Under the pieces are notes generated by a model. The model ran no database searches. It worked only from the letters and a program-made list of their open reading frames with translations, and was not told where the DNA came from. The translations under genes were made by a program, and so were the position numbers. A DNA stretch of 64,000 nucleotides from Bacteroidota bacterium (GTDB lineage Bacteria > Bacteroidota > Bacteroidia > Chitinophagales > Saprospiraceae): positions 124,001-188,000 of the forward strand of contig JASBVF010000007.1 of assembly GCA_030147525.1 (NCBI GenBank), given 5' to 3'. Every line of letters starts with the position of its first letter. Positions within the stretch are counted from its first letter, which is position 1. Below are positions 820-60,836 of the stretch, piece by piece.

Positions 820-854
820 TTCTCCTTTTACAAAATTCCAAACGCCCTCAAACC

Positions 855-878
855 AATTCACTAATTTACTAATTCACT
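855..878 (+). repeat. Three tandem 8-nt words (AATTCACT type), one-armed
   Basis: The units AATTCACT, AATTTACT and AATTCACT follow each other without gaps just before the mqnC start codon. A rotated form of the same word recurs at 22295-22326. No inverted copy is present here. It belongs to the word-repeat class described in the findings. Confidence 0.6.
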
Positions 879-884
879 GAATCA

Positions 885-2027
885 ATGCATACCGACGACC
901 TCTTGCAACGTGCCCTCCGCCTCGAAGACCTCACCGCCGAAGAAGGCGTTTTTTTATTTGAAAATGCCGCCACGGCTGAGCTGATGTACGTGGGTAACCG
1001 CCTGCGCCAGCACCACGTGCCCGGCAACGTAGTCACCTGGATCATCGACCGGAACTCGAATACGACCAACGTCTGCATCGCCAATTGCAAGTTTTGCAAC
1101 TTCTTCCGCAGGCCCGGCCATGAGGAGAGCTACATCACTTCCATCGAAGAATACAAAGTAAAAATTGAGGAGACTTTCGCTTACGGCGGCGAGCAACTGC
1201 TCTTGCAAGGCGGTCACCACCCCGATCTGGGGCTGGATTTTTACACCAATCTCTTCCGTGAGTTAAAAAATCTGTACCCCAATCTGAAGCTCCACGCCCT
1301 CGGCCCACCCGAAATTGCCCACATCACAAAGCTCGAACAGTCAACGCATTACGAAGTACTGAAAGCCCTGAAGGAGTCCGGCCTCGACAGCCTGCCCGGC
1401 GCCGGCGCAGAGATCCTCGACGACCGGGTGCGCCGCCTCATCTCCGCTGGCAAATGCGGAGCGAAGGAGTGGCTCGACGTGATGCGGGCCGCCCACCAGC
1501 TGCGCCTGACGACCTCCGCCACGATGATGTTCGGCCACATCGAAACGAATCTGGAGCGCATGGAACACCTTGTAAAAATCCGGGAAGTGCAGTCCGAAAA
1601 ACCGGCGGATGCGAAGGGTTTCATCGCTTTCATCCCCTGGCCGTTCCAGGACGAGGACACCATTTTGAAAAAGCTGAAACGTGCCCGCAACACCGTCACC
1701 GGCGACGAGTACGTCCGCATGATCGCCATGAGCCGCATCATGCTGCCCAACGTGCCGAACATCCAGGCCAGTTGGCTGACGGTCGGCAAGCCGGTGGCTC
1801 AGCTTTGTCTGCACGCCGGAGCGAACGATTTCGGTAGTATCATGATCGAAGAAAACGTGGTGTCGGCAGCCGGCGCCAAGTTCCGTTTCACGGCGGACGG
1901 CATTCAGCAGGCCATCCGGGATGCGGGTTTCACGGCACAACTGCGCAACCAGCAGTACGAGTACCGGGAGTTGCCGAAGGCGATCCGGCAGCAGGAATTG
2001 GACCGGGTGGGGATGATTGTGGATTGA
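885..2027 (+). CDS. mqnC: Cyclic dehypoxanthinyl futalosine synthase (MqnC), radical SAM
   Basis: MqnC cyclises dehypoxanthine futalosine in the futalosine route to menaquinone, using a [4Fe-4S] cluster and S-adenosylmethionine. The radical SAM cluster ligands are visible as C64, C68 and C71 in CIANCKFCNF. They are followed by the family's LLQGGHHPDLGLDFY and HALGPPEI stretches, and by the SLPGAGAEILDDRVR segment. The length of 380 residues is normal for the family. It starts at an ATG 65 nt after a TAnnTTTG box. A close alternative is MqnE or CofH, but the GGHHPDLGLDFY and FIPWPFQ segments fit MqnC best. It implies that menaquinone is made without the MenFDHCEB pathway. Confidence 0.93.
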   Translation: MHTDDLLQRALRLEDLTAEEGVFLFENAATAELMYVGNRLRQHHVPGNVVTWIIDRNSNTTNVCIANCKFCNFFRRPGHEESYITSIEEYKVKIEETFAYGGEQLLLQGGHHPDLGLDFYTNLFRELKNLYPNLKLHALGPPEIAHITKLEQSTHYEVLKALKESGLDSLPGAGAEILDDRVRRLISAGKCGAKEWLDVMRAAHQLRLTTSATMMFGHIETNLERMEHLVKIREVQSEKPADAKGFIAFIPWPFQDEDTILKKLKRARNTVTGDEYVRMIAMSRIMLPNVPNIQASWLTVGKPVAQLCLHAGANDFGSIMIEENVVSAAGAKFRFTADGIQQAIRDAGFTAQLRNQQYEYRELPKAIRQQELDRVGMIVD

Positions 2028-2031
2028 TTTG

Positions 2032-2067
2032 GTTTGAGGGGTTTGAATTGTTTGAGGAGTTTGAGTT
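2032..2067 (+). repeat. Four tandem 9-nt words GTTTGANNN, one-armed
   Basis: The units GTTTGAGGG, GTTTGAATT, GTTTGAGGA and GTTTGAGTT run in exact 9-nt register, beginning 4 bases after the mqnC stop codon. The same word family forms the hairpin at 18698-18798. No inverted arm is seen here. Confidence 0.75.
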
Positions 2068-2112
2068 GATGGATTGGGGCGGGAATCTTAACTTGCAGGA
2101 AAAAATCACAAG

Positions 2113-2754: not shown

Positions 2755-2835
2755 AAAATAAACCTGTGCGTTTCATCAAAAAACAGCGATAAAAAAATAT
2801 TTTTACCTCGAAATAAAACGCTAAAAAAAACCAGC

Positions 2836-4802: not shown

Positions 4803-4857
4803 CGAGCACAAAAGCGGCATTTTCAAAATACTGAAACCAAAAATTCAATTCAAAACC

Positions 4858-5850: not shown

Positions 5851-5879
5851 TAACTCAACCTTTCCCGAAAATTCCTCCT

Positions 5880-7550: not shown

Positions 7551-7567
7551 AAAGGAAATGTTCCAAC

Positions 7568-7607
7568 AAAAAAGCCTTGCCACGTACTCACACGGCAAGG
7601 CTTTTTT
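7568..7607. terminator. Bidirectional hairpin terminator after prfC
   Basis: AAAAAAGCCTTGCC pairs with GGCAAGGCTTTTTT around a 12-nt loop, giving a 14-bp stem with a U tract on either strand. It sits between convergent prfC and the small membrane gene at 7632. Confidence 0.9.
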
Positions 7608-7631
7608 GTTTCTAAAAACTTCGGTCAATGT

Positions 7632-10699: not shown

Positions 10700-10718
10700 G
10701 ATGCAGTTTTTGAAAATT

Positions 10719-10747
10719 GTCTCACCGGGTTTCACACCCGGTGAGAC
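10719..10747. terminator. Strong hairpin between convergent genes
   Basis: GTCTCACCGGGT pairs perfectly with ACCCGGTGAGAC around TTCAC, a 12-bp GC-rich stem. It ends one base before the stop codon of the minus-strand gene at 10749. The U tract is poor on both strands. Confidence 0.65.
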
Positions 10748-10748
10748 A

Positions 10749-11522
10749 TCATTCAACAAACACCTCATCCAAAAATACCCACCCCGTTTGCCCTTTCCCG
10801 GGATGCCAATCCTGCAGCGAAGACAGTGCTTTCAGGCGCAGGGTAAGTTCCCGGTATTTTTTCTTCGGGATGGAAATTTCAACTAACTCGAGGCTCGATG
10901 GCTGGTCCTCTCCCGCATTGGTGATTGCTTTCCGTACAATCAGTTTTCCCTTTTCATCAAAAATCTCTACCGCCTGCGGCAAAAAAATCCATGCTCCCTG
11001 CTGCCGCATCAGGCTGACAGTCACCAGCCGTATTTTTTTCTTTTTATTGAAAAAACATCGGAGCGACACCTCCTGCTGATCGAACCCCAGCCAGTTTTCC
11101 CTGAAATTTTCATCGCCAAGCTGACCGTCGCAGAGGGTGCACCATCCGTTGGCGGCGTACTTGTCCGGCGTGGGTGAAATAGCTATGCTGTCGATGCTTC
11201 CGGCCGCGAGAGAAAGCACCTGTACCGTCTTCGTTTCAGAGGGCAGGAAGCCGTCGCAGAAAGATTTTGCTTTGATCCGGGCGGGTTCGGTTACGCTGAG
11301 GGGCTGGCGGTAAACCGGTGAGTTTTTATCAGGTTCGCTGCCATCGGTGGTGTAGCGGATGACGGCGTTTTTCATCCGGAAATCAAAAGAAACGGTCGAC
11401 TCAGGAGTCAATATCAGGCGGGCTGCGGGCGTTTGTGGCGGGGCAAGTTGCAATGTTTGCGAAGCGACAGAAAACCAGGTGAAGCCCGGCAACAGGAGAA
11501 GAAATATTTTTTGCACCGCCAT
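10749..11522 (-). CDS. Secreted protein with chitobiase/FN3-associated domain
   Basis: A signal peptide (about residues 1-21) is followed by a segment typical of the chitobiase C-terminal / FN3-associated domain: IRYTTDGSEPDKNSPVY near residue 55. The remaining 150 residues form a beta-sandwich-like region with a discoidin flavour (GWCTLCDGQLGDENFRENW, later YRELTLRLKAL). This combination usually accompanies surface or periplasmic carbohydrate-active proteins, but no catalytic domain is present. The reading frame ends on DEVFVE next to a strong hairpin. Confidence 0.7.
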   Translation of the reverse strand: MAVQKIFLLLLPGFTWFSVASQTLQLAPPQTPAARLILTPESTVSFDFRMKNAVIRYTTDGSEPDKNSPVYRQPLSVTEPARIKAKSFCDGFLPSETKTVQVLSLAAGSIDSIAISPTPDKYAANGWCTLCDGQLGDENFRENWLGFDQQEVSLRCFFNKKKKIRLVTVSLMRQQGAWIFLPQAVEIFDEKGKLIVRKAITNAGEDQPSSLELVEISIPKKKYRELTLRLKALSSLQDWHPGKGQTGWVFLDEVFVE

Positions 11523-11572
11523 TTTTGAATTCGATTTTAAAAAATGAAAAACCGCCTGGCAATTTCCCCCGC

Positions 11573-11606
11573 TACTGCCTACCGGCCTACTCGCCTACTG
11601 CCTACT
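11573..11606 (+). repeat. 8-nt word array TACTCGCC, one-armed
   Basis: The units TACTGCC, TACCGGCC, TACTCGCC and TACTGCC follow in tandem, then TACTAAAA leads into the terminator at 11610. The same words recur at 16449, 23690 and 24685. Confidence 0.65.
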
Positions 11607-12637: not shown

Positions 12638-12740
12638 ATTTTTACGTGATGTTGTGCTTGGATGATGATTGGTGGTTTCCTGCTGGTCATTTGGAACGGG
12701 TTAAAAACGGCGAAAAGACGGTTTTTGTTTCGAAGCTTTT

Positions 12741-12819
12741 TGATTTACGAATTGGGATTTGCGATTCAGGTGTGATTTATGTTCAAACCCGCAATCGCAA
12801 ATCCCGGATCGTAAATGAT
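12741..12819 (+). repeat. Word-built hairpin (GGGATTTGCGATT type) at the cysS stop
   Basis: The left arm (about 12742-12766) and right arm (about 12790-12819) pair through GGGATTTGCGATT with AATCGCAAATCCC, and GATTTACGA with TCGTAAATG. The outer end touches the cysS stop codon at 12819-12821. The words resemble those at 20531-20603. Confidence 0.7.
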
Positions 12820-14318
12820 CAGGCCTTCGACCAGGTTGCCCCTTCTTTGCTGTCTTTCACAACAATGTCGAGTTCTTTCAACACATCCCTGATTTTATCG
12901 GAAGTTCCCCAGTCCTTGTTCGTGCGGGCTGTTTGGCGCATTTCGAGAATGAGATTCATCAAACCATCCACCACGCCGTCGCCGGATGAAGCAAAGTCTT
13001 CCGTCAGCAGGCCGAAGATATCGAAAATGAAATCGTTGAAAGTTTGTTTCAATCGTTCCAGCGTCTCAGCCGTAACGTCGCCAAGGGACAACTGCCCGCC
13101 CTTCAGGCTGTTGATTTTGGTCACCAGTTCGAAGAGGCTGGCCAGTGCTTTGGGCGTGTTGAAATCGTCGCTCATGTCGTTGAATGCGAGGTCGATGAGC
13201 GAGTTGATTTCTTTGTCCAGGTCTCCGGCCTTGCCGTTGCCGGGGTGCGAAAGTTCCTGTAAAACTTTTTGACCTTCCATCAAGCGGCGGTAGCCTTTTT
13301 CGGCAGCTTGCAGGGCATCGTCGGTCATGTCGAGTGTGCTGCGGTAGTGCGTTTGCAACATAAAAAACCGCACGACCATCGGCGAGTAAGCTTTCGTCAA
13401 ATGCTTGCTCTGGCCGGTGAACAGTTCGCCGGGCATGATGGAGTTGCCGTCGCTCTTCGACATTTTTTTGCCTTCGAGCAGGAGCATGTTGCCGTGCATC
13501 CAGTAGTTACATGGCGCATGGCCACAGACGCCGTAGTTCTGGGCGATTTCGTTTTCGTGGTGCGGGAATTTCAGGTCGCCGCCGCCACCGTGGATGTCGA
13601 ATTTTTCACCGAGATATTTCGTACTCATCGCCGAGCATTCGAGGTGCCAGCCGGGAAAACCCACTGACCAGGGCGCCTGCCAGCGCATCAGGTGTTCGGG
13701 TGCTGCTTTGATCCAGATGGCAAAATCGGACGGGTGTCTTTTTTCATCCTGATTTTTCAGGTTGTCCCGTGTTTCCGTGAGCAGGTCTTCGATTTTGCGG
13801 CCGGAGAGCTTGCCGTACACGCCGTATTTTTCAGCAAATTTCAACGTGTCGAAATAAACGGAGCCGTTTTGCTCATAGGCCAAACCATTGTCAATGATGG
13901 CCTGCACCATTTCGATTTGTTCGATGATGTGGCCGGTGGCTCTTGGCTCTATGTTGGGCGGCAGGACGTTGAAGATTTTCATCATTTCATGAAAACCATT
14001 CATGTACTGCTGCACGATTTCCATCGGCTCGAGTTGTTCAAGGCGGGCTTTTTTTGAAATTTTATCCTCCCGGCCGGTGTCGGCGTCGCCTTCGAGGTGG
14101 CCCACGTCGGTGATGTTGCGCACGTAGCGCACCTTGTAGCCGAGGTGCTGCAGGTAGCGATAGATGATGTCAAAACCCACGAAAGTCCGGCAGTTGCCGA
14201 GGTGTACGTCGCTGTAAACCGTAGGGCCGCAAACGTACATGCCGACCCGGCCTTCGTGAATGGGTTTGAAAATTTCCTTTTTACCGGAGTAACTGTTGTA
14301 AATCTGAATTTCCTTCAT
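12819..14318 (-). CDS. cysS: Cysteinyl-tRNA synthetase
   Basis: Class I synthetase charging tRNA-Cys. The zinc ligand C30 is followed by [12 protein letters not shown], with the HIGH-type motif HLGN at residues 39-42. KMSKS is at about 284-288 ([12 protein letters not shown]). WHLECSAM and [15 protein letters not shown], which carry further zinc ligands, are present. The length of 499 is normal. The last residues ([13 protein letters not shown]) match the conserved C-terminus, and the stop codon lies at the edge of a word hairpin. Confidence 0.96.
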
Positions 14319-15447: not shown

Positions 15448-15508
15448 TGATTGGTGACTGGTGATTGGTGATTGGACTACCCAATTACCAATCACCAGTC
15501 ACCAATCA
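15448..15508 (+). repeat. Near-perfect 28-bp hairpin of four 7-nt words (TGATTGG)
   Basis: The left arm 15448-15475 is TGATTGG, TGACTGG, TGATTGG, TGATTGG. The loop is ACTAC. The right arm 15481-15508 is CCAATTA, CCAATCA, CCAGTCA, CCAATCA. The arms pair over 28 bp with one mismatch, including the variant second word (TGACTGG opposite CCAGTCA). The last three bases are the stop codon of the rhomboid gene. Confidence 0.9.
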
Positions 15509-16435
15509 CTTCTTGCTTGCATTAAATAAAAATTCTTTTTCAGAAGGTGACAGGCTGTCATAGCCCGTTTGTTTGATCTTATCGAGAATAGCGTCAAGTT
15601 TTTCCTGGTGAGAGAGGTCTTCAGGAGAGGTGCCACGCTGACGGCCACTGCCGGAGCGCTGTTTTTTTGCATTGGGGTTTTTGTAGGCGACTTTAGGGCC
15701 CGGCGCTTTTTCTGAAAATAAATTACTGAAAAATGAAGTGATCGAATTCAGGATACTGTTGACCGGTGTGGTCAAGTCGTTTCCGTGTTGCAGTTGCTGT
15801 GCAATGATGTACCCCATGACTGCCCCGCCGAGGTGGCCAAAGCTGCCGCCGGAATTGTTGTTGTTCGAAAGTCCGATGATGTCCAGAAAAAACAGAACGG
15901 CCACGATGTATTTCAATTTCACATCTCCCAGAAAGAGCAGGGAAATGTTGTAGTCCGGCGCTGTCTTTCCAGCCACCACCAGAATAGCCATGAACGCTGC
16001 CGAAGCGCCGAGTGCATACGCACCAAAATCGAACGGAGTCGGCACATTAGCCATGATGAAATAAGCGAAGCCACCGGCCAAACCTCCCAGCAGGTAAATT
16101 GGTAAAATCCGCCGGTCGCCCAGCAGGTCGCCAACGATGCGGCCGAACCAGTACAACAGCAGCATGTTCCAGAGGATGTGCCAGAAGTCGGTATGCAGGA
16201 ACATGTGGGTGATGAAAACCCAGGGGTGCGTCAGGTTGTGCTTCCAGTCGGCGCCAACCATGAAAAAGCGCAGCAGCTTCTGGTAAGCCATCCCGTCGCC
16301 GTCGCCGATGGGCATCATGATCAACTTCGCCAGTATCGCCACCACAAATACGCCAATGTTGACCAGGATGATCCGGGTCAGCATATTGCCGTAACTAAAC
16401 TGCCGCTTTACATCGTACCAAATCGAACTGAACAT
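15506..16435 (-). CDS. Rhomboid family intramembrane serine protease with C-terminal cytoplasmic tail
   Basis: Rhomboids cleave membrane proteins within the bilayer. The catalytic Ser is in YALGASAAF and the catalytic His in FGHLGGA. The HILWNMLLL stretch supplies the conserved His and Asn of helix 2. Six hydrophobic segments cover about residues 20-230. The tail of 80 residues is basic and disordered, then ends in a small helical motif (LDAILDKIKQTGYDSLS) seen in many Bacteroidota rhomboids. It follows the second rhomboid gene in the same direction. Its stop codon is part of the hairpin at 15448. Confidence 0.9.
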   Translation of the reverse strand: MFSSIWYDVKRQFSYGNMLTRIILVNIGVFVVAILAKLIMMPIGDGDGMAYQKLLRFFMVGADWKHNLTHPWVFITHMFLHTDFWHILWNMLLLYWFGRIVGDLLGDRRILPIYLLGGLAGGFAYFIMANVPTPFDFGAYALGASAAFMAILVVAGKTAPDYNISLLFLGDVKLKYIVAVLFFLDIIGLSNNNNSGGSFGHLGGAVMGYIIAQQLQHGNDLTTPVNSILNSITSFFSNLFSEKAPGPKVAYKNPNAKKQRSGSGRQRGTSPEDLSHQEKLDAILDKIKQTGYDSLSPSEKEFLFNASKK

Positions 16436-16448: not shown

Positions 16449-16526
16449 AGTAGGCCAGTAGGCGGGTAAGCTTTGCCGGTACTGCGTGGGTACTCGCCTA
16501 CTTGCCTACCGGCTTACTCGCCTACT
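16449..16526 (+). repeat. 8-nt word hairpin (GTAGGCNN / TACTCGCC) between the two rhomboid genes
   Basis: The left arm is GTAGGCCA, GTAGGCGG, GTAAGC and the right arm is TACTCGCC, TACTTGCC, TACCGGCT, TACTCGCC, TACT. It is an imperfect hairpin ending next to the stop codon (16527-16529) of the second rhomboid gene. Confidence 0.75.
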
Positions 16527-18690: not shown

Positions 18691-18697
18691 AAAGTTG

Positions 18698-18798
18698 GTT
18701 TGATTTGTTTGAGGAGTTTGAATCGTTTGATTTGTTTGATGGGTTTGAGGTGAGCGGAACAACTCAAACCCATCAAACCCATCAATCACCTCAAACCC
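18698..18798 (+). repeat. 9-nt word hairpin GTTTGANNN between kmo and aroB
   Basis: Six left units in exact 9-nt register (GTTTGATTT, GTTTGAGGA, GTTTGAATC, GTTTGATTT, GTTTGATGG, GTTTGAGGT; 18698-18751) face four right units (CTCAAACCC, ATCAAACCC, ATCAATCAC, CTCAAACCC; 18763-18798). It occupies nearly the whole divergent spacer. Confidence 0.9.
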
Positions 18799-18834
18799 CT
18801 TATTGCTGTAAAACTATCTCATTTTTGATGAAAA

Positions 18835-20528: not shown

Positions 20529-20530
20529 AA

Positions 20531-20603
20531 TTTACGGTTTACGATTTTGGATTTACGATTGTGAGGCGCAACTCAATCGTAAATCCAAAATCGTCATTCG
20601 TAA
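20531..20603 (+). repeat. Word-built hairpin, about 31-bp arms (TTTACGATT type)
   Basis: The left arm (20531-20565) reads through TTTACGG, TTTACGATTTTGGA, TTTACGATTG, and the right arm (20571-20603) is its inverted copy with about two mismatches. The loop is about 6 nt. It lies between convergent genes and contains the stop codon of the minus-strand LamG gene (20594-20596). Confidence 0.88.
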
Positions 20604-21388
20604 ATCGCACAAAGCGATTCCACTTCCATGTCCTCCGGCACAAAACTCACGCAGTCGATCTCGGCCAGTTCCACCGGGTAGCGGGCGTAGAGTTGCCCGA
20701 TTTCCACCTCCGTCAGTGCCCGGTCGTACACCCGCAGTTCGTCGAGGGCGCCCTTGAAACGCACCGTCCGCCCGTTGCTCAGGCATGGGCTGTTGCTGAA
20801 CGACAGCACGGCGTCGTTGCTCAGGTCCACGCCGCTGCACCGCACGGCCTGCCGGTGCAGTACGCCGTTGACGTAAGTGCGGGCGTAGCGGCCTTCCCGC
20901 ACGAGGGCGAAGTGCAGCCAGTCGGTTTCTTCCGTTCCCGGTGAAATATCCCGGTAAAAAATCTCCGGCGATTCATGGACGGCGGTGTTCACCTCCTTGC
21001 GGGTCACGTCGAGCAGGAAGTCGAACATGTTGTACTCGTCACAATTCATCCGTTTGGAAAGCATGCTTTGGCGAAAAACGCTGTATTTGGAGGGTTTGAA
21101 ATAAAAACTGATGGTGAAATCCGAAGTGGTGAAGTAGCGGTTCACCCTGCCATGAAATTCGATGAAATCGTCCATGCCATCCAGCCAAAGTGCATCGTCG
21201 TCCACGCCGCACACGCAGCCCGGCTCGCCGAACAGCATGCCATCGGAGCCGCCGTCGGAGTCGTCCCTGGCGTCGCATTCGTTGAAGGAGTAGTAGGCGA
21301 TGAGGCCGTCGTCCAATGCTGGAAATTGGGTGGGGAGCAGAAAGGCGCAAACGAGCCAGACAGGGGCGAAGAAGGCGAGTATTTTCAT
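20594..21388 (-). CDS. Secreted LamG-like (concanavalin A-like jelly-roll) protein
   Basis: A signal peptide of about 20 residues is followed by one jelly-roll domain: LIAYYSFNECDARDDS start, a DDALWLDGMDDFIEF strand, FTISFYFKP, and GALDELRVYDRALTEVEI near the end. This fold is used for carbohydrate or protein binding outside the cell. LamG proteins of this phylum are often larger and end in a type IX sorting domain. Here the frame ends soon after the domain, and the last residues (CAIYE) are encoded by hairpin DNA, so the 3' end may have been altered by the repeat. Confidence 0.8.
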   Translation of the reverse strand: MKILAFFAPVWLVCAFLLPTQFPALDDGLIAYYSFNECDARDDSDGGSDGMLFGEPGCVCGVDDDALWLDGMDDFIEFHGRVNRYFTTSDFTISFYFKPSKYSVFRQSMLSKRMNCDEYNMFDFLLDVTRKEVNTAVHESPEIFYRDISPGTEETDWLHFALVREGRYARTYVNGVLHRQAVRCSGVDLSNDAVLSFSNSPCLSNGRTVRFKGALDELRVYDRALTEVEIGQLYARYPVELAEIDCVSFVPEDMEVESLCAIYE

Positions 21389-22259: not shown

Positions 22260-22294
22260 TTTTTTTAAAATTTATTTTCCAGGGCCAAAATTCT

Positions 22295-22326
22295 CTCATT
22301 CCCTCATTCACTCATTCCCTCATTCA
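22295..22326 (+). repeat. Four 8-nt words CTCATTCC/CTCATTCA, one-armed
   Basis: CTCATTCC, CTCATTCA, CTCATTCC, CTCATTCA in perfect register, with a degenerate fifth unit CTCAGATA continuing into the coding region. The DinB stop codon (22320-22322) is inside the array. Confidence 0.8.
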
Positions 22327-22850
22327 CTCAGATACCGCTCTTTGATCACACCCATGTGGTGCAATTCGTGCCCGGCGATGATGAACGCAATGGCCAGTGG
22401 CGAAGCGGGATTGTTGCTCGCCGTACCGATGCGGCCCAGGTCTTCCTCGTGCAAACTGTTAAACAAGTGCACCGTTGCTTCCCGCACGGCCTGGTACTCG
22501 GCGATCAGCGAGGCCGGGGTGCGCTGGCTGGCATGGCAGTTTTCAGCAAAAAGATTTTCATCGAATCCCGGCAGCGGCGTCAGGTCGTTGCGGGCGATGC
22601 GCAGGGCACGGTAAGCGAAGACCCGCTCGCCATCGATGAGGTGTTGCAGTACTTCCTTGATGCTCCACTTGCCGGGGGCGTAGCGGTAGTCCCATTTTTC
22701 GGTGGGCAGGTTTTCAAAAAAAGCGGCCACGGAAGTTTTGGCATCCGCTAAAGTTTGAAAAATGTCGTTCGTTTCGACCTTGCTGATGTAGGTTTGGTAG
22801 AAGGCGCCGTATTCGTGTGGCGCCGGGCGCCGGGTGGTGGTTGTTTTCAT
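22320..22850 (-). CDS. DinB family protein
   Basis: This 176-residue protein has a four-helix DinB fold. Metal-binding His residues are in WSIKEVLQHLIDGERVF and in the C-terminal AGHELHHMGVIKERYL. The APGKWS motif is typical of Bacteroidota members. Probable role is a thiol- or metal-dependent transferase, with an unknown substrate. Its C-terminus (ERYLSE) and stop codon are encoded at the edge of the 8-nt word array. Confidence 0.85.
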   Translation of the reverse strand: MKTTTTRRPAPHEYGAFYQTYISKVETNDIFQTLADAKTSVAAFFENLPTEKWDYRYAPGKWSIKEVLQHLIDGERVFAYRALRIARNDLTPLPGFDENLFAENCHASQRTPASLIAEYQAVREATVHLFNSLHEEDLGRIGTASNNPASPLAIAFIIAGHELHHMGVIKERYLSE

Positions 22851-22893: not shown

Positions 22894-23010
22894 AGGATTG
22901 GATCATGGATGAGACGGGTTGGGCGGATTCGCACGGATTTTAGTACACAAAACGATCAAAGTAAAATCCGTATAAATCCGCCCAATCCGTCTCATCCGTG
23001 TTTCAATCCT
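22894..23010 (+). repeat. Long hairpin of about 10-nt words (CGGATT family)
   Basis: The left arm (22894-22944) begins AGGATTGGATCATGGATGAG and the right arm (about 22972-23010) ends CATCCGTGTTTCAATCCT; they pair over about 49 positions with few mismatches. The same element occurs at 58632-58733 and 60721-60836. The stop codon of the minus-strand gene at 23003 is inside the right arm. Confidence 0.88.
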
Positions 23011-23659: not shown

Positions 23660-23689
23660 GTTGAAATTGGTATTGATTGTTTTCAAAAC

Positions 23690-23752
23690 TACTTGCCTAT
23701 TTGCCTGCCGGCCTACTCGCCTACTGCCTACTCGCTTACCGGCCTACTCATT
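23690..23752 (+). repeat. Eight 8-nt words TACTCGCC type, one-armed
   Basis: TACTTGCC, TATTTGCC, TGCCGGCC, TACTCGCC, TACTGCC, TACTCGCT, TACCGGCC, TACTCATT run in register and end at the stop codon of the DUF3137 gene (23752-23754). Confidence 0.85.
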
Positions 23753-24675: not shown

Positions 24676-24684
24676 TTTTTAGGA

Positions 24685-24795
24685 GTAGGCAAGTAGGCGA
24701 GTAGGCCGGCAGGCGAGTAGGCCGGTAGGTAAGTAGAGCCATTTTCGTACTCGTCTACTTGCCTGCCGGCCTACTTGCCTACCGGCCTACTCATT
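24685..24795 (+). repeat. Hairpin of 8-nt words (GTAGGCNN / TACTTGCC), about 50-nt arms
   Basis: Left units are GTAGGCAA, GTAGGCGA, GTAGGCCG, GCAGGCGA, GTAGGCCG, GTAGGTAA, GTAGAGCC (24685-24740). The loop is ATTTTCG. Right units are TACTCGTC, TACTTGCC, TGCCGGCC, TACTTGCC, TACCGGCC, TACTCATT (24748-24795). The right arm ends at the base before the SDR stop codon. Confidence 0.92.
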
Positions 24796-25708: not shown

Positions 25709-25795
25709 AAAGTTCAAAGGTTTAAAAGTTGAAGAGTTTAAAAGCTCACCGATAAACTGGTTCGTTAAACCATTCAACTCTTAAACCCTTAAACC
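25709..25795 (+). repeat. Hairpin of 8-nt words (AAAGTTTA type)
   Basis: Left units are AAAGTTCA, AAGGTTTA, AAAGTTGA, AGAGTTTA, AAAGCTCA; right units are GTTAAACC, ATTCAACT, CTTAAACC, CTTAAACC. It lies in the divergent spacer, ending 10 nt before the dioxygenase ATG. Confidence 0.82.
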
Positions 25796-25804: not shown

Positions 25805-26323
25805 ATGCCAATCGCAAAACCTTTCAACCTGCATCAATGGATCGAGGACAACCGTCACCTCCTTCAGCCGCCTGTCGGCAATAAGCAAATTTATATGAAC
25901 AATGACGACTACATCGTCATGGTCGTCGGTGGCCCGAATGGCCGCAAGGATTATCACTGGGAAGACGGCGAAGAACTTTTTTACCAACTCCAGGGCGATA
26001 TCACCGTTAAAATTATCAACGAAGACGGTAAACCCGAAGACATCCACATCCGGGAAGGCGAGATGTTCCTGCTGCCGCCCCGCATCCCGCACTCGCCGCA
26101 GCGCCCTGCCAACACGGTCGGCCTCGTCATCGAGCGCTACCGCAATCCCGGCGAGATTGACAAACTGATGTGGTTCTGCGACAACTGCCATGAAAAATTG
26201 TACGAGGCAGGCTTCCCGCTCAAGGACATCGGCACCCAAATCAAAGCTGCCATTCAGGAGTTTATGTCCTCCGAAGAACACCGTACCTGCAAGCACTGCG
26301 GAACGGTGATGGAGCGTGTTTAA
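25805..26323 (+). CDS. haaO: 3-hydroxyanthranilate 3,4-dioxygenase
   Basis: This cupin dioxygenase opens the ring of 3-hydroxyanthranilate to give the precursor of quinolinate (NAD synthesis) or of 2-aminomuconate breakdown. Iron ligands H51, E57 and H96 are present (YHWEDGEELFYQ and PPRIPHSPQRP). The bacterial form's second metal site is intact as C125-x-x-C128 and C162-x-x-C165. The length of 172 is typical. With kmo at 17.3 kb, two of the kynurenine steps are encoded in this window. The stop codon is followed after 1 nt by a word hairpin. Confidence 0.95.
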   Translation: MPIAKPFNLHQWIEDNRHLLQPPVGNKQIYMNNDDYIVMVVGGPNGRKDYHWEDGEELFYQLQGDITVKIINEDGKPEDIHIREGEMFLLPPRIPHSPQRPANTVGLVIERYRNPGEIDKLMWFCDNCHEKLYEAGFPLKDIGTQIKAAIQEFMSSEEHRTCKHCGTVMERV

Positions 26324-26324
26324 A

Positions 26325-26395
26325 AGGATTGAAGGATTGAAGGATTGCAGGGTTGCATTCCTCCTGTCCTCCAATCCTTCAATCCTTCAATCCTC
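26325..26395 (+). repeat. Hairpin of 8-nt words (AGGATTGA / CAATCCTT)
   Basis: Left units are AGGATTGA, AGGATTGA, AGGATTGC, AGGGTTGC (26325-26356); right units are CAATCCTT, CAATCCTT, CAATCCTC (26372-26395). It fills the gap between haaO and the lpxH-type gene. Confidence 0.88.
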
Positions 26396-26399
26396 TCAA

Positions 26400-27167
26400 A
26401 TGACAAAAACCTACTTTGCCTCCGACTTCCACCTCGGCACCGACGGGCGCCTGACGAGCAGGGAGCGGGAGCGCCAGATCGTACGCTGGCTGGATAAAAT
26501 TGCACTGGATGCGGCGGAGTTGTACCTCGTTGGAGACGTTTTCGACTACTGGTTCGAATACCGGAAAGTGGTGCCGAAAGGCTACGTCCGATTGCTTGGA
26601 AAGCTGGCGGAACTTCGGGAAAATGGCCTGCCCATTTATTTTTTCACCGGCAACCATGACATGTGGATGTTCCGCTACCTGGAGGAAGAACTGGGAATTC
26701 CGATTTACCGGGACCCGGTCGTTCGGGAGTTTGGCGGCAAGAAATTCTACATCGGCCACGGCGACGGACTTGGACCGGGCGACTACGGATACAAGTTCAT
26801 CAAGGCTGTTTTTTCAAATCCCGTTTGCCAGTGGCTTTTCGAGCGCCTGCATCCCAATGCAGGGCTTTGGCTGATGACTACGTTTTCCGGGACGAGCCGG
26901 AAGGCCAATCCTTCCGATCCAAAATTTCACGGCGAAGAGAAAGAACGGCTCATTCAGTTCTGCAATGATCAGCTCGACCTGGCGGATATCGATTACTTCA
27001 TTTTTGGACACCGGCACCTGCCCATCGACTACACACTGAAAAACGGGAAAAGCCGTTATATCAACCTTGGGGATTGGGTGGTGTTTAATTCTTACGCAGT
27101 GTTTGATGGTGAAAGACTGGAACTTAAATTTTTTGAAAATGCGCAGGGCAAAATATTTGGCCGTTAG
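26400..27167 (+). CDS. lpxH: UDP-2,3-diacylglucosamine diphosphatase (LpxH-type metallophosphoesterase)
   Basis: LpxH hydrolyses UDP-2,3-diacylglucosamine to lipid X in lipid A synthesis. Metal-binding motifs are in order: ASDFHLG (D, H), LVGDVFDYWFEY (GD), TGNHDMW (GNHD), YIGHGDG (H) and IFGHRHLP (GHxH). The ATG at 26400 gives 255 residues; the longer frame is hairpin DNA. LpxH-like genes next to haaO appear to be a recurrent arrangement in Bacteroidota. Its last 29 nt overlap the start of the next gene. Confidence 0.88.
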   Translation: MTKTYFASDFHLGTDGRLTSRERERQIVRWLDKIALDAAELYLVGDVFDYWFEYRKVVPKGYVRLLGKLAELRENGLPIYFFTGNHDMWMFRYLEEELGIPIYRDPVVREFGGKKFYIGHGDGLGPGDYGYKFIKAVFSNPVCQWLFERLHPNAGLWLMTTFSGTSRKANPSDPKFHGEEKERLIQFCNDQLDLADIDYFIFGHRHLPIDYTLKNGKSRYINLGDWVVFNSYAVFDGERLELKFFENAQGKIFGR

Positions 27168-36711: not shown

Positions 36712-37244
36712 GGTCAAAAAGCCTTCGTCATTTTTTTTCTTCACTGATTGTAAATTTCACCAAATGCACCGTTTTCAGGATAAATATCTGCCGGCTTTCA
36801 AAAAAATATAACTTTTCAATCTTTAAAAAACAGGAGGCAAAGTTACCTTTACGCTTTCTGTTCAGGACTAGACTTACTCCGGGTTAAATATATAGTCAGC
36901 AATCAGCCGGCTTCTTACCTCATACAAGTTCTGTTGGACAGGCATTTCCAGACAACCATCGCCTTTTATTTTCACCCCCCGGAAAAACACATTTTTCAAA
37001 ACCGGCAAGGATAAAAACCGGCAGGATTTGAAAAAGTCTATTTCGCTGCCACCCATGAATTTTTCCTGAAAAAGGCAGTATCCAATACGTATCCTGAAAA
37101 TCATGAAAACATCTGCTGATCTGCGGGCAGCCCGTTAGACGGTTTTTTTTTGTTTAAAAAATTGACGTTAAGCACTTTAGAGAAATAAACCCAATTCAAA
37201 ATTCTTTGCGGCTTTCCCTGCGAGGCGCAAGTAACATTTTCAAA
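36712..37244 (+). other. Spacer between the two giant paralogues
   Basis: About 530 bp of AT-rich DNA with no convincing gene. A 76-codon minus-strand frame at 36874-37104 has no recognisable features. The terminator before it and this long spacer suggest that the second paralogue has its own promoter, though I cannot point to a clear -33/-7 pair. Confidence 0.45.
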
Positions 37245-40200
37245 ATGATAAAAAATCTACGGTTAGCGATACTGATATCACTGCTCCCTGCTCTTTCCCC
37301 ACTTTTTTCACAGCCCTGCGACTGTCTGAACACCGGAAACTGTCCTGTTCCGATCGAAGACAATGGCACTTTCTACGGCACGCTGGATGTCACCGTCAGC
37401 GGAGCGAATGATCTGGCAAGCTGCCCGCTTACCCAGGTTTGTTTTTCTATTACTCATACCTGGGTGGGCGACCTCAGCGTTACGCTCACTTCTCCGGGTG
37501 GCCTCAATTACCTGTTAATGGCCGACTCGAACAACGGCCCCGGAGGCTGCGGAACAGACGCTGACAATGTCGATGTTTGTATCACGACCGGCACCGGCAA
37601 CCCACTGACGAACAACACAGAGTACATGTGTAACCCGGGGCCCTGCTTTAGCGGAAATTGCTGTCTGACCGGCTTCTGGACGGTGCCCTGCGGCGGTGTG
37701 AGCGATCCGTTTTCCGGTGCTCAGCAGGCTCCGAACTGCGACCTCAACGACTTCAACCTACCCGGCCAGCCTGCCAACGGCACCTGGACGCTTGCAGTCA
37801 ACGACGTTTGCCAGCAGGATGTGGGCACGCTCAACAATTTCTCCCTGACGTTTGCCTGTGGCACCCAATCCTGCATCGTATGTTCGGCGGATGGCGGAAT
37901 GCTGCCGGGGCAGAGTGTTGCCAGTTGCTTCGGCGATCCTTCGCTTGCGCTGAACCTGAGCCCAATTTACAGCGGTCCTCCTCCGTCGCCGGGTGAATAC
38001 GGCTATGCCTACGTTATTTCACAAAATGGAGTGATCACCTCGATCAATCCAACTGCGGATATGTCATTTCAGCCGCCGGGCGTTTACTCGGTTTGCGGAA
38101 TTTCTTACGTGCTGACGGCCATCGGCGACGTGCAGTCGCTGGTGGGAATGAACCTCACCACGGCGCAAAACTTACTCAGCGGCGCAACTGCGCCTTTTTG
38201 CGCTGATTTTTCCGACAACTGCATCAACGTCACCATCGGTCCGGCCATTCCGCCCAGCTTTTTTGACACGCTGGTGTGCCTGGGCGATTGCATCGACTAC
38301 GGCGGGCAAATATTGTGCGGATCAGGTTCGGTGACTTTCCAGTCATGGTTGGGCTGCGACAGTGTTGTCAATGTGGTGATGATCCCGATTCCACCGATTT
38401 TCAGTGAGCAGAACGTTACGGTGTGTCAGGGGGATTGTATCACGATTAATAATCAGACTTACTGCCCGCCCGGTCCGCATGTTTTTACCGTCGAAAACTG
38501 GCAGGGCTGCGACAGTACTATCACGCTGACGTTTGATCAGATACTAACCACTGCCATCATCCTTCCGTTGAATCCGCCGCCTTTGTCCTGCGCTAACCCC
38601 GTGACAACCCTGGATGCGTTCAGCTCGATACCTGCCCTGGGGCCTGGTGTGATTTATTCCTGGAGCGGGCCCAATAATTTCAGTAGCACAGACCCGGTCA
38701 TCGGCGTAAGTACGCCCGGTGTTTACAACCTGATGGTGACCAACAACAGTGTGACACCGGCGTGTGTCTCCACGGCCTCAGTCACTATTACCGGTAATCA
38801 GAATGGCCCCAACCTGCAACTCAACAGCCAGCCGCCACCGATTTGCGTGGGTGCCTCATTTAATCTTGCGACCCTGAATGTCGTGGATTTGAACAATACC
38901 AACCCCACGATCACCTTCCACAGCGCAACGCCGGCAACACCGGCAAATCAGTTGCCGAATACCACGGTTTCACCCACGACCACTACGACTTACTACATTC
39001 TCGGAACGACCGGAAACTGTACGGATGAAATCCCCGTGACGGTAACCGTGAACCCTGTCCCCACTGCTGACTTTACGGTCACATCTCCAATCTGCATCGA
39101 CTCGGCAGCGACGGTAACCTACACGGGTACCGCAGGTAGCGGGGCTACGTTTAACTGGAATTTTGGCGGCGGAACGGCAACACCCGGCACCGGTCCGGGG
39201 CCTCACACGGTGGAGTGGGCCAGCGGCGGTACAAAAACCATCACCCTGGTCGTCACGCAGAATGGCTGTACCTCGGCATCCGTCAGCCAGACGGTTGCGG
39301 TGAATTCACAGATTCCGGCGCCGGTCGTTAATTGTCAGCCAATGACCAGTTCCATCACCTTCACCTGGAGCCCCATTCCCGGTGCAACCGGCTACAACGT
39401 GACCCCCGCAGTCGGCCCATCCGGTACGATGCTGAACGATACAACTTACCAGGTAACGGGACTTGACCCTGGTGAGCAGGTATCCATTTTTGTGGAAGCC
39501 ATCTCCGGGAATGCCTGCCCGGGTTCCAGTACGCAAATAACCTGCACGGCGCAGGATTGTCCGCCGGTCACTGTTTCGATCGCTCCGGTAGCGGATATCT
39601 GTCTTGACGGCACGGCAGGTCCCATTCAGTTGGTTGCTTCGCAAACCGGTGGCATGGGCGGCGGCGTTTACAGCTGGTCGGGGCCGGGAGTCAACCCGAT
39701 CACCGGCATGTTTAACCCGGCGAACGCCAACCCGGGAGCTAACAACATCGTCGTGACCTACGAGGAAGGCACCTGCCTCTACAATGCCACGAGAGTAATC
39801 AATGTCTTTCCGCAGCCTTCGGCAAATTTCAGCGTCACTTCGCCTATCTGCGTATCCGGCACCTCGACGGTCAATTACACGGGCAATGCTTCGAACAATG
39901 CCATTTTTACCTGGGACTTTGCCGGCGGGACAGCAACCCCGGGCACCGGCCCCGGTCCGCACTCGGTCAGCTGGCCGGATGGCGGCAGCTACATGATTTC
40001 ACTCATGGTGGAGGAAGATGGATGTGGATCAGACACGGTAACGCAGACGGTAACTGTTGAAAATCAGCTGCCCGCCCCCATCATCGATTGCGTAACAACG
40101 ACGGCAACCGTTGAATTTTTCTGGAATCAAATTCCCGGTGCCGGAGGCTACGATGTGGTCGTGGTAAGTGGAAATGGTACGGGTACGGCAACCTCCGATA

Positions 40201-43130: not shown

Positions 43131-43156
43131 GCGGCTTTGCCGGAAAATTTTTAGAA

Positions 43157-43196
43157 AAAGTGACAACTGCGATGGATGGCGGTTGTCACTTTTTTA
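43157..43196 (+). terminator. Rho-independent terminator after paralogue 2
   Basis: AAAGTGACAAC pairs with GTTGTCACTTT around a 14-nt loop and continues into a T tract (TTTTTTATTT), 27 nt after the stop codon. Confidence 0.9.
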
Positions 43197-49974: not shown

Positions 49975-50337
49975 ATTGTAAAATTTTACGCAAGCCCTTC
50001 TCCAGCGACTCTGCAGGAGATTCGACGATACGCCCGATTTTACAGCCGTTTTTCAAAAAAATAAAAGTGAGTTGGTACCCGATGTCCCAGCCTTTTACCT
50101 CACTATTGGGACTGTTTTTGCTTCGATCGGGATGATTGTCGAGGGCGACGATGGTGTGTCTGTTTTTATGAAATTCAGATGATCGAAGACTTTATAAAAA
50201 TGGAGTACCTCTGTCGGAGCACCAGGTGCCCATGAGGGTGAGGATTTCGACGCCGTTGGGGCTGACTTTTTCATGTTGAGGGTAGAGCATTGCGTGAGCG
50301 CAAGCGCAAGCGGCAGCAGGATCAGCAGTTTTTTCAT
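49973..50337 (-). pseudogene. Thioredoxin-family lipoprotein pseudogene with at least three frameshifts
   Basis: The minus strand encodes a lipoprotein signal (MKKLLILLPLALALTQC) and then, in alternating frames, pieces of one thioredoxin-like protein. These are PNGVEILTLMGTWCSDRG (active-site-like WCSD), TEVLHFYKVFDHLNF in the original frame, then HKNRHTIVALD and GYQLTFIFLKNGCKIGRIVE ending at 49973. No single frame spans more than a third of the domain. The pieces are collinear with Bacteroidota thioredoxin-like proteins that carry WCSDS and PTFIF. Several independent indels argue for a real decayed gene rather than one sequencing error. Confidence 0.85.
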
Positions 50338-55428: not shown

Positions 55429-55440
55429 AACTTTCACACG

Positions 55441-58618: not shown

Positions 58619-58631
58619 TTTCACTTTTGAC

Positions 58632-58733
58632 AGGATTGGATCACGGATTGGACGGATTTGGCGGATTAAAACGGATTTTTTGATACGAATCTGTTTTAAT
58701 CTGCCAAATCCGCTCGATCAGCGGTCCAATCCT
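58632..58733 (+). repeat. Hairpin of about 10-nt words (CGGATT family)
   Basis: The left arm (58632-58678) starts AGGATTGGATCACGGATTGG and the right arm (58689-58733) ends CGGTCCAATCCT. The arms pair over about 46 positions with roughly seven mismatches. Related to the elements at 22894 and 60721. Confidence 0.85.
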
Positions 58734-58777
58734 GCGCTATGTGGTCAAATAATTTTTCCAGTTTCTACCTTCGCCAC

Positions 58778-59662
58778 ATGAAATTAAATATTCCCAATTG
58801 GTTCCTCTACGCCCTTTTCACCACCCTCTGCTGGGGTACGTGGGGCGCTTTCGTCGAAATACCCGAAAAAGCGGGCTTCCCGGCCACGCTGGGCTTCATC
58901 GTCTGGTCTATCAGCATGATCCCGTTCATGATCGTGGCTCTGGCCAAGTCCGGCTGGAAGCTGGAACACGGCTGGAAATCCGTGCGGGACGGCATGTTCG
59001 TCGGGCTGACGGGCGCAGGCGGCAACCTGTTGCTGTTCGAGGCGCTGAAGACGGGGCCGGCTTACATTGTGTTCCCCATCATCTCGCTGTACCCGGTCTG
59101 GACCATTTCGTTTTCCCTCATTTTTTTAAAAGAAAAAGCCACCCGGCGGCAGTGGATTGGTATTGCCCTGGCCGTGGCCGCCATTTTTTTTCTCACCTGG
59201 CAAGGCCCCGATGACTCGAACGTGAAAGGCGGGGCATGGCTCGTGCTGGCGTTGATCATTTTTCTGCTCTGGGGCACCCAAAATATTGTTTTTAAAACTG
59301 CCAACCGCCACACCTCCGCCGAGAGCATTTTCGTGTACATGACCCTCGGCGGGCTGGCGCTGGCACCCGTCGCCTGGTGGATGACCGAACCCGGACAACC
59401 CATCAACTGGGGACTGAAAGGCTTCTGGTTGCTGGCTTTCCTCCACCTCGTCAACTCCGCCGGGGCGCTGACGGTGGTGTATGCCTATCGCTACGGCAAG
59501 GCGCTGGTCGTGGCTCCGCTCATCGGGCTGGCGCCGGTCATCACGGTCATTTTATCGCTGATTACTTACGGTGTCATTCCATCGCTGACATTGTCCACCG
59601 GCATCGTGCTGGCGACAGTGGCCATGATGCTGCTGCCGGATGCAGGGGAGGAAGAATCATAG
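58778..59662 (+). CDS. EamA/DMT family transporter
   Basis: Ten hydrophobic helices are arranged in two EamA-type halves (LYALFTTLCWGTWGAFVE at the N-terminus; GGAWLVLALIIFLLWGTQNIVF starting the second half). The start is the ATG at 58778, 5 nt after a TACCTTCG box; the longer frame to 58739 would run into the box and hairpin. Substrate unknown: such proteins export or import small metabolites or sugars. The next two genes, a ROK kinase and a SIS-domain protein, act on sugars, so a sugar link is possible. Confidence 0.85.
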   Translation: MKLNIPNWFLYALFTTLCWGTWGAFVEIPEKAGFPATLGFIVWSISMIPFMIVALAKSGWKLEHGWKSVRDGMFVGLTGAGGNLLLFEALKTGPAYIVFPIISLYPVWTISFSLIFLKEKATRRQWIGIALAVAAIFFLTWQGPDDSNVKGGAWLVLALIIFLLWGTQNIVFKTANRHTSAESIFVYMTLGGLALAPVAWWMTEPGQPINWGLKGFWLLAFLHLVNSAGALTVVYAYRYGKALVVAPLIGLAPVITVILSLITYGVIPSLTLSTGIVLATVAMMLLPDAGEEES

Positions 59663-59673
59663 TTTCAATTGAA

Positions 59674-59760
59674 TTCAGATTCTTCGATTTAACGATATTT
59701 GATTTTTGATTTGCGTTCTCCAAATCAAAAATCTAAAATCATGTAATCGAAGAATCTGAA
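59674..59760 (+). repeat. Hairpin with 40-nt arms (TTGATTTTTGATTTG type)
   Basis: The left arm 59674-59713 begins TTCAGATTCTTCGATT and the right arm 59721-59760 ends AATCGAAGAATCTGAA. They pair over about 34 of 40 positions with a 7-nt loop, beginning 11 nt after the transporter stop codon. Confidence 0.88.
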
Positions 59761-59804
59761 ATCAAAAACCAGGCATTTCAATTTCAACCAAAACCTTCCC
59801 AAAC

Positions 59805-60719
59805 ATGAGTTTATCCATCGGCATCGATCTCGGCGGCACCAACATCAAAGCCGTCGTGCTGGACCGGGACGGCCACCGCCACCACCAGACCATCCGCTCC
59901 ACCGGACAACACCAGGACGCCGAAGACGAGTGGGCCTGGAAAAATGCCGTCCGGGACACCTACCTCGACCTGAAAAAACAATTCGGCAACAGGGTAACTT
60001 CCGTCGGGCTGTCCGCTCCCGGCATCGCCAATGCGGAGAACTCGGCGATCATGTGCATGCCGGGTCGGCTGTACGGATTGGAAAATTTCAACTGGACGGA
60101 GTTTTTGGGTGAAAAAACCTGGGTGGTCAACGATGCCCACGCTGCGCTGATGGCGGAGGCCAGTTTCGGCGCAGCCAAAGGTTTTCAAAATGCCGTGTTG
60201 CTCACACTTGGCACGGGCGTTGGCGGCGGCATCCTCATCGGCGGGGAGTTGTACCAGGGTTTTTATCAAATTGCCGGCCACGCCGGTCACACCACCGTCG
60301 CTGCGCAGGACGTCCAGCAGGACGCCACGGGAATGCCCGGCGCTATCGAGGATGCCATCGGTGACGAGTCGTTGCAGCGGCGGTCGCTGGGGCGGTTCAG
60401 TTCCACCCGTGAGCTGGTGGAGGCTTACCGGAAGGGCGACCATTTCGCTACCTGGCTTTGGTTGAGTTCGGTGCAAAAACTGGCCGTTACGATCTGTTCC
60501 ATCTGCAATTTACTTTCGCCGGAGGTCGTCGTACTCGGCGGCGGCATCGCAAAGGCGGGCGATACGCTGTTTCAACCGCTGCTGGAGTTCAAAGACCTGT
60601 ACGAGTGGCGGCCCGGCGGGAAGAAGACGCCGGTGGTGCAGGCCCGGTTCGGGGAGTTTGCGGGGGCGACGGGGGTGGCGGCGTTTGCGATGCGGAAGGC
60701 GCTGAATCAGGAAATTTGA
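59805..60719 (+). CDS. ROK family sugar kinase
   Basis: It has 304 residues. The phosphate-1 motif GIDLGGTNIKAVVLDRDG is at the N-terminus, followed by a mid-protein LTLGTGVGGGILIGGEL (phosphate-2) and VVVLGGGIAKAGDTLF near the end. The catalytic Asp is in WVVNDAHAA. The usual ROK zinc motif CxCGxxGCxE is missing: the region reads GHTTVAAQDVQQDATGMPG. The kinase may therefore lack structural zinc. The sugar specificity is not readable. It is followed by a hairpin and a SIS-domain gene. Confidence 0.88.
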   Translation: MSLSIGIDLGGTNIKAVVLDRDGHRHHQTIRSTGQHQDAEDEWAWKNAVRDTYLDLKKQFGNRVTSVGLSAPGIANAENSAIMCMPGRLYGLENFNWTEFLGEKTWVVNDAHAALMAEASFGAAKGFQNAVLLTLGTGVGGGILIGGELYQGFYQIAGHAGHTTVAAQDVQQDATGMPGAIEDAIGDESLQRRSLGRFSSTRELVEAYRKGDHFATWLWLSSVQKLAVTICSICNLLSPEVVVLGGGIAKAGDTLFQPLLEFKDLYEWRPGGKKTPVVQARFGEFAGATGVAAFAMRKALNQEI

Positions 60720-60720
60720 C

Positions 60721-60836
60721 AGGATTGGATCACGGATTAGACGGATTTTACGGATCGTCACGGATTTCAAGTAAGAACTATATGGAAAAAAATCCGTGGG
60801 AATCCGCCCAATCCGTCTAATCCGTGATCCAATCCT
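60721..60836 (+). repeat. Hairpin of about 10-nt words (CGGATT family), 47-nt arms
   Basis: The left arm 60721-60767 begins AGGATTGGATCACGGATTAG and the right arm 60790-60836 ends TAATCCGTGATCCAATCCT. The outermost 27 positions pair without a mismatch, and the inner part has about six. It begins 1 nt after the ROK stop codon. Confidence 0.9.

Follow-up and report, generated by a model that had tools for sequence, protein, structure and literature searches.

The stretch of DNA analysed here, called the window, comprises 64,000 nt from a Bacteroidota bacterium of the family Saprospiraceae (assembly GCA_030147525.1, 7.08 Mb in 59 contigs; contig JASBVF010000007.1, positions 124,001 to 188,000, our C56:124001-188000). 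Many of its intergenic spacers hold iterated-word repeats. In these, about 3-10 copies of one 7-10 nt word follow one another, the C-poor strand leading away from the gene edge into the spacer, and the array is often mirrored by a G-poor run at the opposite edge.

Arrays and hairpins in the window and beyond

In 200 dinucleotide shuffles, the 49 window spacers gave on average 0.09 arrays (maximum 2) and 0.04 hairpins (maximum 1), where the real sequence has 9 tandem arrays and 15 hairpins; this is the comparison that the initial annotation had named as able to refute its claim of word-built spacers. By our finder (array score at least 10, hairpin score at least 13; spacers of at least 20 nt), an array or hairpin was present in 20 of the 49 spacers. 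Three of the hairpins are ordinary ones not built of words (7565-7610, 10707-10759 and 43155-43194), a 6-nt array at 50297-50325 is marginal, and the array at 23689-23749 was missed by our finder and detected by Tandem Repeats Finder (TRF). With these removed or added, about 17 word spacers are left where "about nineteen" had been proposed. The 12 hairpins that look built of words agree with the proposed "about a dozen", though only 6 of them pass a strict test of periodicity (at least 0.6 in both arms; Table 1). The remaining six were judged by eye, and those of the CGGATT family are unevenly spaced. All six words first quoted as examples lie where they were placed: TGATTGG at 15448, GTAGGCNN at 24685, AGGATTGA at 26325, AAAGTTTA at 25709 (degenerate), GTTTGANNN at 18698 and CGGATTNNN at 60721.

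Table 1. Word arrays and word-built hairpins of the window, with positions counted from its first nucleotide.
Coordinates	Strand	Feature	Hairpin start	Strict periodicity	Remark
852..890	.	8-nt array AATTCACT/AATTTACT, single arm			extends to start of gene at 885
2031..2065	.	9-nt array GTTTGANNN, single arm			directly after stop codon ending 2027
11572..11606	.	8-nt array GCCTACNN (reverse complement of GTAGGC), single arm
12743..12816	.	hairpin, ATTTACG/GATTTGCGATT words	12743	by eye	right arm slightly below periodicity threshold
15448..15509	.	hairpin, 7-nt word TGATTGG	15448	passed	arms 15448-15475, 15481-15508
16450..16526	.	hairpin, 8-nt word GTAGGCNN	16450	by eye	short arms fail periodicity test
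18695..18800	.	hairpin, 9-nt word GTTTGANNN	18712	passed
20530..20605	.	hairpin, ATTTACG/GATTTTG words	20530	passed	spacer convergent
22290..22330	.	8-nt array ATTCNCTC (reverse complement of GAATGAG), single arm
22894..23010	.	hairpin, CGGATT family, outer end AGGATTGGATCATGGAT	22894	by eye	period uneven
23689..23749	.	8-nt array GCCTACNN, single arm			TRF
24684..24792	.	hairpin, 8-nt word GTAGGCNN	24699	passed
25709..25795	.	hairpin, degenerate 8-nt word GTTTAAAA	25712	passed
26319..26400	.	hairpin, 8-nt word AAGGATTG	26319	passed	occupies entire spacer
58631..58734	.	hairpin, CGGATT family (9-10 nt), outer end AGGATTGGATCACGGAT	58631	by eye	period uneven
59669..59765	.	hairpin, GATTTTT/TTCGATTT words	59669	by eye	period uneven
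60721..60836	.	hairpin, CGGATT family, outer end AGGATTGGATCACGGAT	60721	by eye	period uneven

The hairpin at 12743..12816 adjoins the 3' end of a cysS-like gene (12819-14318, minus strand), and in four congeners the same spacer carries word arrays at its opposite edge. In this spacer (window 12638-12818), part of the DNA between the edge arrays is conserved in four congeners (around TTACGTGATGTT ... GCTAAAAACGACC ... GTTTTGTTTCGA); it might be a promoter or a small RNA, and Rfam gave no match for it. The window also holds two adjoining very large open frames, 30744-36629 (1961 aa) and 37206-43130 (1974 aa). For one protein of the window, Saprospiraceae MAGs are among the nearest named relatives.

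Beyond the window, we sampled 848 kb of the 7.08 Mb of the own genome (536 spacers), including contigs picked for earlier TGATTGG matches (C49, C59, C9 and C15) and one picked for a ROK homologue (C31), together with congener stretches picked by synteny or by known size. One stretch (L044) was trimmed to its first 4 kb so as not to overlap the window, and genes were called with a home-made hexamer model, so that start positions are approximate. The excess persisted, with 123 hairpins against 0-2 and 75 arrays against 0-3 in five shuffles of the own spacers. Confinement to spacers is partial, since predicted genes hold 44 of the 134 arrays of this sample. Spacer arrays also exceeded shuffles in the congeners G012 (30 against 0.4), G008 (26 against 0.2), G001 (25 against 0.6), G007 (15 against 0) and G005 (22 against 0, with few hairpins, 4), and in G031 of the same family (10 against 0). 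The samples of G011, G004 and G009 held 3 arrays in 23 spacers, 2 in 97 and 1 in 16, and 16 of the 18 other sampled genomes had 0 or 1 array. The exceptions are Prevotella jejuni (L095), outside the family, with 5 arrays in 21 kb, and Cesiribacter andamanensis, with 2 in 12 kb. Repeats of other kinds were also seen, namely tandem units of about 40-80 nt (by eye) on GGAATATTCC palindromes (L053 841-1013, L072 12771-12991, L075 12484-12620) and a further dispersed hairpin family with CCCCTGACCCCTAAAGGGG-like arms (L040 6493-6578, L054 15989-16080, L065 12301-12408, L073 7071-7179, L077 14618-14701).

Among 395 genomes sampled from the phylum, threefold TGATTGG occurred in 4 and the same pattern read backwards in 8, so that TGATTGG alone is not remarkable; fourfold GTTTGANNN occurred in 2 and its backward control in 1, and the genome that gave the lone match besides this one has 22 matches to the backward pattern. 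In one Bacteroidota genome of another family (G060), long spacers (L261-L264) contain several different words of 7 nt, which are C-poor in the left part of the spacer and G-poor in the right. Its spacers, which were found through TGATTGG, hold 1 hairpin in 63, and 100 kb of this genome chosen regardless of words contained no array of score at least 12.

Word vocabularies and their turnover between species

Many unrelated words share one common design, which upholds the view of the initial annotation that they are not copies of one mobile element. Periods in the own genome are not those of a unit of exactly 7 nt, as 71 of 115 arrays repeat every 8 nt, 24 every 7 nt and 13 every 9 nt, while 7 nt is the commonest period in G012, G008, G001 and G007. 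Some words are private to a species. Counted as match positions, several of which fall in one array, threefold GTAGGCNN has 110 matches in the own genome and 0 in 13 congeners, and about 41 separate GTAGGC loci can be told apart among the 100 matches listed (110 in all). Similarly, threefold GTTTGANNN has 115 matches in the own genome, 149 in G011 and 0-24 in the other 12 genomes, and the GGATTTC pattern has 100 in G012, 3 in the own genome and 0-28 in the rest. That independent slippage should have produced one six-base core dozens of times in a single species and never in its relatives is most unlikely; thus, words spread in trans. A contig end is less than 170 nt away from four of the roughly 41 GTAGGC loci (G000 C1:136, C6:99, C10:313733 of 313823 and C31:368336 of 368416), so the assembly may break at arrays and true numbers may be higher.

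It would be tempting to regard the arrays as mobile hairpins that are non-autonomous and, like repetitive extragenic palindromic (REP) elements, depend for their movement on a REP-associated tyrosine transposase (RAYT). Y1_Tnp domains are present in 12 of 14 genus genomes (4 in the own genome), 4 loci of the CGGATT family agree in their outer ends, and GTAGGC happens to start with the GTAG tag of REPs (PMC3733652). However, words, periods and array lengths vary freely, and by eye the GTAGGC loci have no evident shared flank or fixed non-word termini beyond the word. The array-rich G008 has weak Y1_Tnp matches only, the best of which (1.8e-13) is interrupted by a stop, and REPs as described in the same source are palindromes of 20-40 bp rather than tandem words (PMC3733652). 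A fixed palindromic family with a conserved terminal tag, as REP/RAYT would have it, was not found among the many words, the CGGATT family being the exception, and we consider this explanation improbable.

The spacers themselves change words as species diverge. Through reciprocal best protein matches we paired 153 orthologous spacers from nine genomes; the pairs are not independent, since some spacers recur in several species pairs. Arrays were present in both members of 36 pairs, in one member of 44 and in neither of 73, and in 28 of the 36 the two arrays consist of different words. This is best illustrated by the spacer at 26324-26399, which has AAGGATTG here and in G007, GGATTGC in G001, GGATTTC in G012 and GGTATGA in G008, with both arms rewritten between flanking proteins that are 79-93% identical. 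Likewise, the orthologues of the spacer holding the hairpin at 24684..24792 carry GAGTTTT (G001), TTGGCAG (G007), GGATTTC with GGATTGC (G008) and GAGTTAT (G012). Words are therefore replaced in the same spacer between species, and different words in the same gaps of related species suggest a spreading process that rewrites intergenic DNA. At one G008 site, GTATGA suggests that a word may be seeded locally from the stop-codon context of the gene itself. Since many spacers are replaced in their entirety from species to species, with conserved genes on either side, spacer comparisons and searches for regulatory sites in these genomes need care.

Within the words, ten families of the own genome were stacked column by column, and in several of them some columns are near-invariant and 1-3 are free. 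Core columns of the GTTTGA family reach 97-100% and its three free columns 41-56% (32 copies, 5 spacers); in the GTAGGC family the core columns stand at 86-98% and the free ones at 36% and 64% (64 copies, 13 spacers). Phasing the stacks on the seed word favours the core, but the contrast is still large. It is not universal, as the TGATTGG family lacks a free column (all at least 92%; 25 copies, 4 spacers). Such column-specific conservation in several words across loci would be expected if arrays were multivalent binding sites, with invariant columns as the core for nucleoid-binding or RNA-binding proteins and free columns as linkers, and the tandem arrangement fits cooperative binding. However, the own genome alone has ten word families, the same spacer of congeners has different cores and some words are private, so that this idea needs many fast-changing proteins and seems to us rather improbable.

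Orientation, inverted arms and origin of the arrays

The orientation of the arrays is nearly absolute. Across seven genomes, the C-poor strand runs from the gene into the spacer in 177 of 180 edge arrays, that is, in 79 of 79 at start codons and in 98 of 101 at stop codons; this count takes only arrays within 15 nt of exactly one spacer edge and leaves out those with as many G as C (2 of 280 in the set). Arrays without a partner or hairpin follow the rule as well (55 of 57), so polarity does not simply follow from hairpin formation. At distances of more than 40 nt from both edges, arrays are unpolarised (10 of 20 in the own genome, 6 of 11 in five congeners). Leaders free of arrays are already G-poor (C 0.235, G 0.146). 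The C-poor strands of arrays contain 828 stop triplets (282 on the G-poor strands) and 1006 NTG triplets (69 on the G-poor strands), on which selection could act at start and stop edges alike. The observation of the initial annotation is thus confirmed and strengthened, with strict polarity, species-private vocabularies and near-invariant columns as additions to what it had described.

With respect to the inverted arms, 80 of 310 hairpins from seven genomes have periodic arms of one period; the threshold is passed by 96 of 262 real arms but also by 231 of 5240 arms from shuffles, so that a few of the 80 may be due to chance. The 5' arm of these 80 is G-richer in 76, C-richer in 1 and neither in 3, and that of the 230 other hairpins is G-richer in 129 and C-richer in 71. 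Where a C-poor array is followed by a facing G-poor one, the two have the same word in 48 of 58 spacers. Facing arrays are also more alike (identity 0.900, n=43) than same-word arrays in different spacers (0.849, n=270; p=0.00035), as fold-back copying predicts, and this is the arm test to trust, since pairing played no part in the choice of its arrays. A comparison of hairpin arms 24 nt or longer gave 0.893 (n=22) against 0.824 (n=134), from hairpins chosen for their pairing and with a GGATTG group that mixes word types. Thus the proposal that arms vary together is borne out in part, by their greater likeness, but about 10% of positions mismatch. Local generation, also proposed at the outset, stands in part, in that the likeness of facing arrays is partly local and fits fold-back copying, while the same words recur in trans.

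The paired arms could instead be functional RNA hairpins, acting as bidirectional terminators or as stabilisers of mRNA 3' ends, in which pairing is selected and words are free. Word hairpins number 19 in 178 convergent but 7 in 179 divergent spacers, all hairpins of the 848 kb 39 in 79 against 8 in 84, and at one site pairing was kept through complete replacement of the word. However, arrays with or without a partner are barely commoner in convergent spacers (17/67 for +-, 14/83 for -+, 25/133 for ++ and 30/169 for --; own spacers of at least 60 nt), and single-arm arrays are common, with one array in 61 own spacers and two in 25. On the transcribed strand in co-directional spacers, word hairpins show no wobble asymmetry (G.U 42 against A.C 38). 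This test has low power, as the other hairpins, which should include terminators, lack the asymmetry too (74 against 75), and so the wobble test cannot exclude RNA-level selection. A run of four T within 10 nt on either side accompanies 13 of the 80 word hairpins against 71 of the 230 others, and no Rfam family matched at gathering score within the window. Canonical intrinsic terminators are accordingly unsupported, a stem followed by a T run not being the pattern found, and selection on structure, which had been offered as one possible cause, finds no support in the wobble counts, a weak test, or in the T runs. We judge a role as functional RNA to be unlikely.

Polarity has also the geometry of a telomere-telomere fusion, including in spacers with different words at their two edges. 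If the 3' ends of a broken spacer were both extended with C-poor words, by a telomerase-like or template-free polymerase, and joined head to head, this geometry would follow. The unrelated G060 shows the polarity in 11 of 11 arrays of score at least 12, though in spacers found through one word, and DRT10 shows that telomerase-like repeat synthesis exists in bacteria (PMC12632851). However, Ku was found in 0 of 14 genus genomes (the control search matched only Bacillus subtilis among 14 controls), the array-rich G008 and G012 have no match to the PF00078 reverse transcriptase profile, which a too divergent enzyme would escape, and the unpolarised arrays far from both edges do not fit. A DRT10-type product would require a resident reverse transcriptase in every array-rich genome, which G008 and G012 do not show by PF00078. 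End extension of broken spacers is, in our view, very unlikely. One might speculate further on a genome-wide word-writing activity that extends spacer 3' ends with species-specific C-poor words, in the manner of telomere addition, the ends then being joined head to head. If true, spacers would be overwritten time and again in whatever words the species uses at present. The private words, a polarity resembling that of a fusion, the free columns beside a fixed core and the exchange of both arms at one site would then be accounted for, but we hold this to be quite improbable, and an end-extending, telomerase-like writing mechanism has little support.

We tentatively favour, at close to an even chance, a different reading, namely that iterated-word intergenic repeats spread between spacers, are doubled by fold-back copying and are filtered by orientation at gene edges. 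In this scheme, slippage would first lengthen a short array. The C-poor strand would then fold back and copy itself into an inverted arm, a step supported by the facing arrays of the same word and by their likeness above that of same-word arrays elsewhere. Pieces of arrays may reach other spacers, without fixed ends, by template switching or by recombination through the short word. At gene edges, selection would act as a filter, since the C-poor strand, rich in stop and NTG triplets, would do little harm behind a stop codon but be eliminated ahead of a start codon. Finally, words rise and fall as species diverge, as the new words in orthologous spacers show. We take the arrays to be mainly self-propagating and near-neutral rather than a dedicated regulatory device, and neither a resident Ku nor a reverse transcriptase detectable by PF00078 is needed.

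Several observations weigh against this scheme. The word was kept, or changed by one letter, in 8 of the 36 orthologous pairs, and the sharing of words within a genome (6-11% of spacer pairs in the five best-sampled genomes) overlaps with that between genomes (1.5-8.3%), so that vocabularies overlap in part. Fixed and free columns are not predicted by plain slippage. In AATGA hairpins, partner arms are nearly equal in likeness to non-partner arms (0.890 against 0.868). Of the arrays that overlap no predicted gene, a setting in which stop triplets should be of little consequence, 136 of 138 keep the polarity, and 3' flanks free of arrays have no G/C skew (0.209, 0.207). The CGGATT class, unlike other words, may be a defined dispersed element, as its hairpins at window 22894, 58631 and 60721 and at L075 3391 share the outer end AGGATTGGATCA[C/T]GGAT (4 of 4 loci). 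Finally, searches for Ku, PF00078 and Y1 domains revealed no enzyme to which the spreading could be assigned.

Relation to known repeats

The excess of tandem runs in spacers over shuffles (75 against 0-3) places the arrays in the class of short-word tandem repeats (STRR, or heptamer simple sequence repeats). STRR heptamers of heterocystous cyanobacteria comprise several different 7-nt words iterated in one genome, as do the present arrays; the accessible parts of the literature on them contain no description of hairpin pairing, polarity or turnover. The initial annotation knew of no named family with this behaviour, but close published relatives exist (PMC4692102, PMC4679880). The closest are the GGGAATC and GGGGA(C/T)T heptamer repeats of Xanthomonas and Nostoc (Rehm et al. 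2015, PMC4692102). They too are tandem words of 7 nt that lie in spacers and combine fixed with degenerate positions (GGGANTN); 70 and 75 convergent pairs in two Xanthomonas genomes are potential inverted repeats, and length and sequence differ between the two species. Their G-rich strand is sense after stops and antisense before starts, the orientation rule that we find in 177 of 180 edge arrays, and it may thus be a general property of such repeats. They differ in having one dominant word per genome and a period of 7, and were studied as G-quadruplex DNA. The present arrays, in contrast, draw on many words, which are 7-10 nt long, in some cases private to a species and often exchanged between orthologous spacers. 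Most words lack a GGG tract, and, read by eye, they do not show the four G-tracts of at least three that a G-quadruplex takes. Three heptanucleotides of Calothrix are cited in the same source (PMC4692102).

TAACTGA direct repeats, reported from Beggiatoaceae, Cyanobacteria and five Bacteroidetes (MacGregor 2015, PMC4679880), resemble ours as intergenic heptamer arrays that abut gene edges, occur patchily across phyla and in some cases overlap stop codons. They differ in consisting of one word, lying mostly just upstream of start codons and including a single indirect (inverted) repeat, and related heptamers are rarely repeated (PMC4679880). GTAG-tagged REP palindromes with their RAYT (BMC Genomics 2013, PMC3733652) are likewise intergenic inverted repeats, found mostly between co-directional and convergent genes, but with a fixed family sequence and tag, linked to a transposase and not made of iterated words. 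A search of open-licence literature, by titles and the openings of abstracts, found no publication on a many-word vocabulary with turnover in Bacteroidota, and a search with six word sequences returned one unrelated match only.

Earlier reports have dealt with heptamer repeats a word or a few at a time and without explanation. One genus with many words, and with vocabularies that differ between species at shared sites, makes it possible to test local slippage, spread in trans and enzymatic writing against each other, and the near-absolute polarity is a strong and easily checked constraint on any mechanism. We conclude that the iterated-word repeats belong with the heptamer repeats reported from Xanthomonas, Nostoc, Calothrix and Beggiatoaceae, and that they are set apart from these by how many words they use, by their range of periods, by their tendency to form hairpins and by the exchange of words at given sites.

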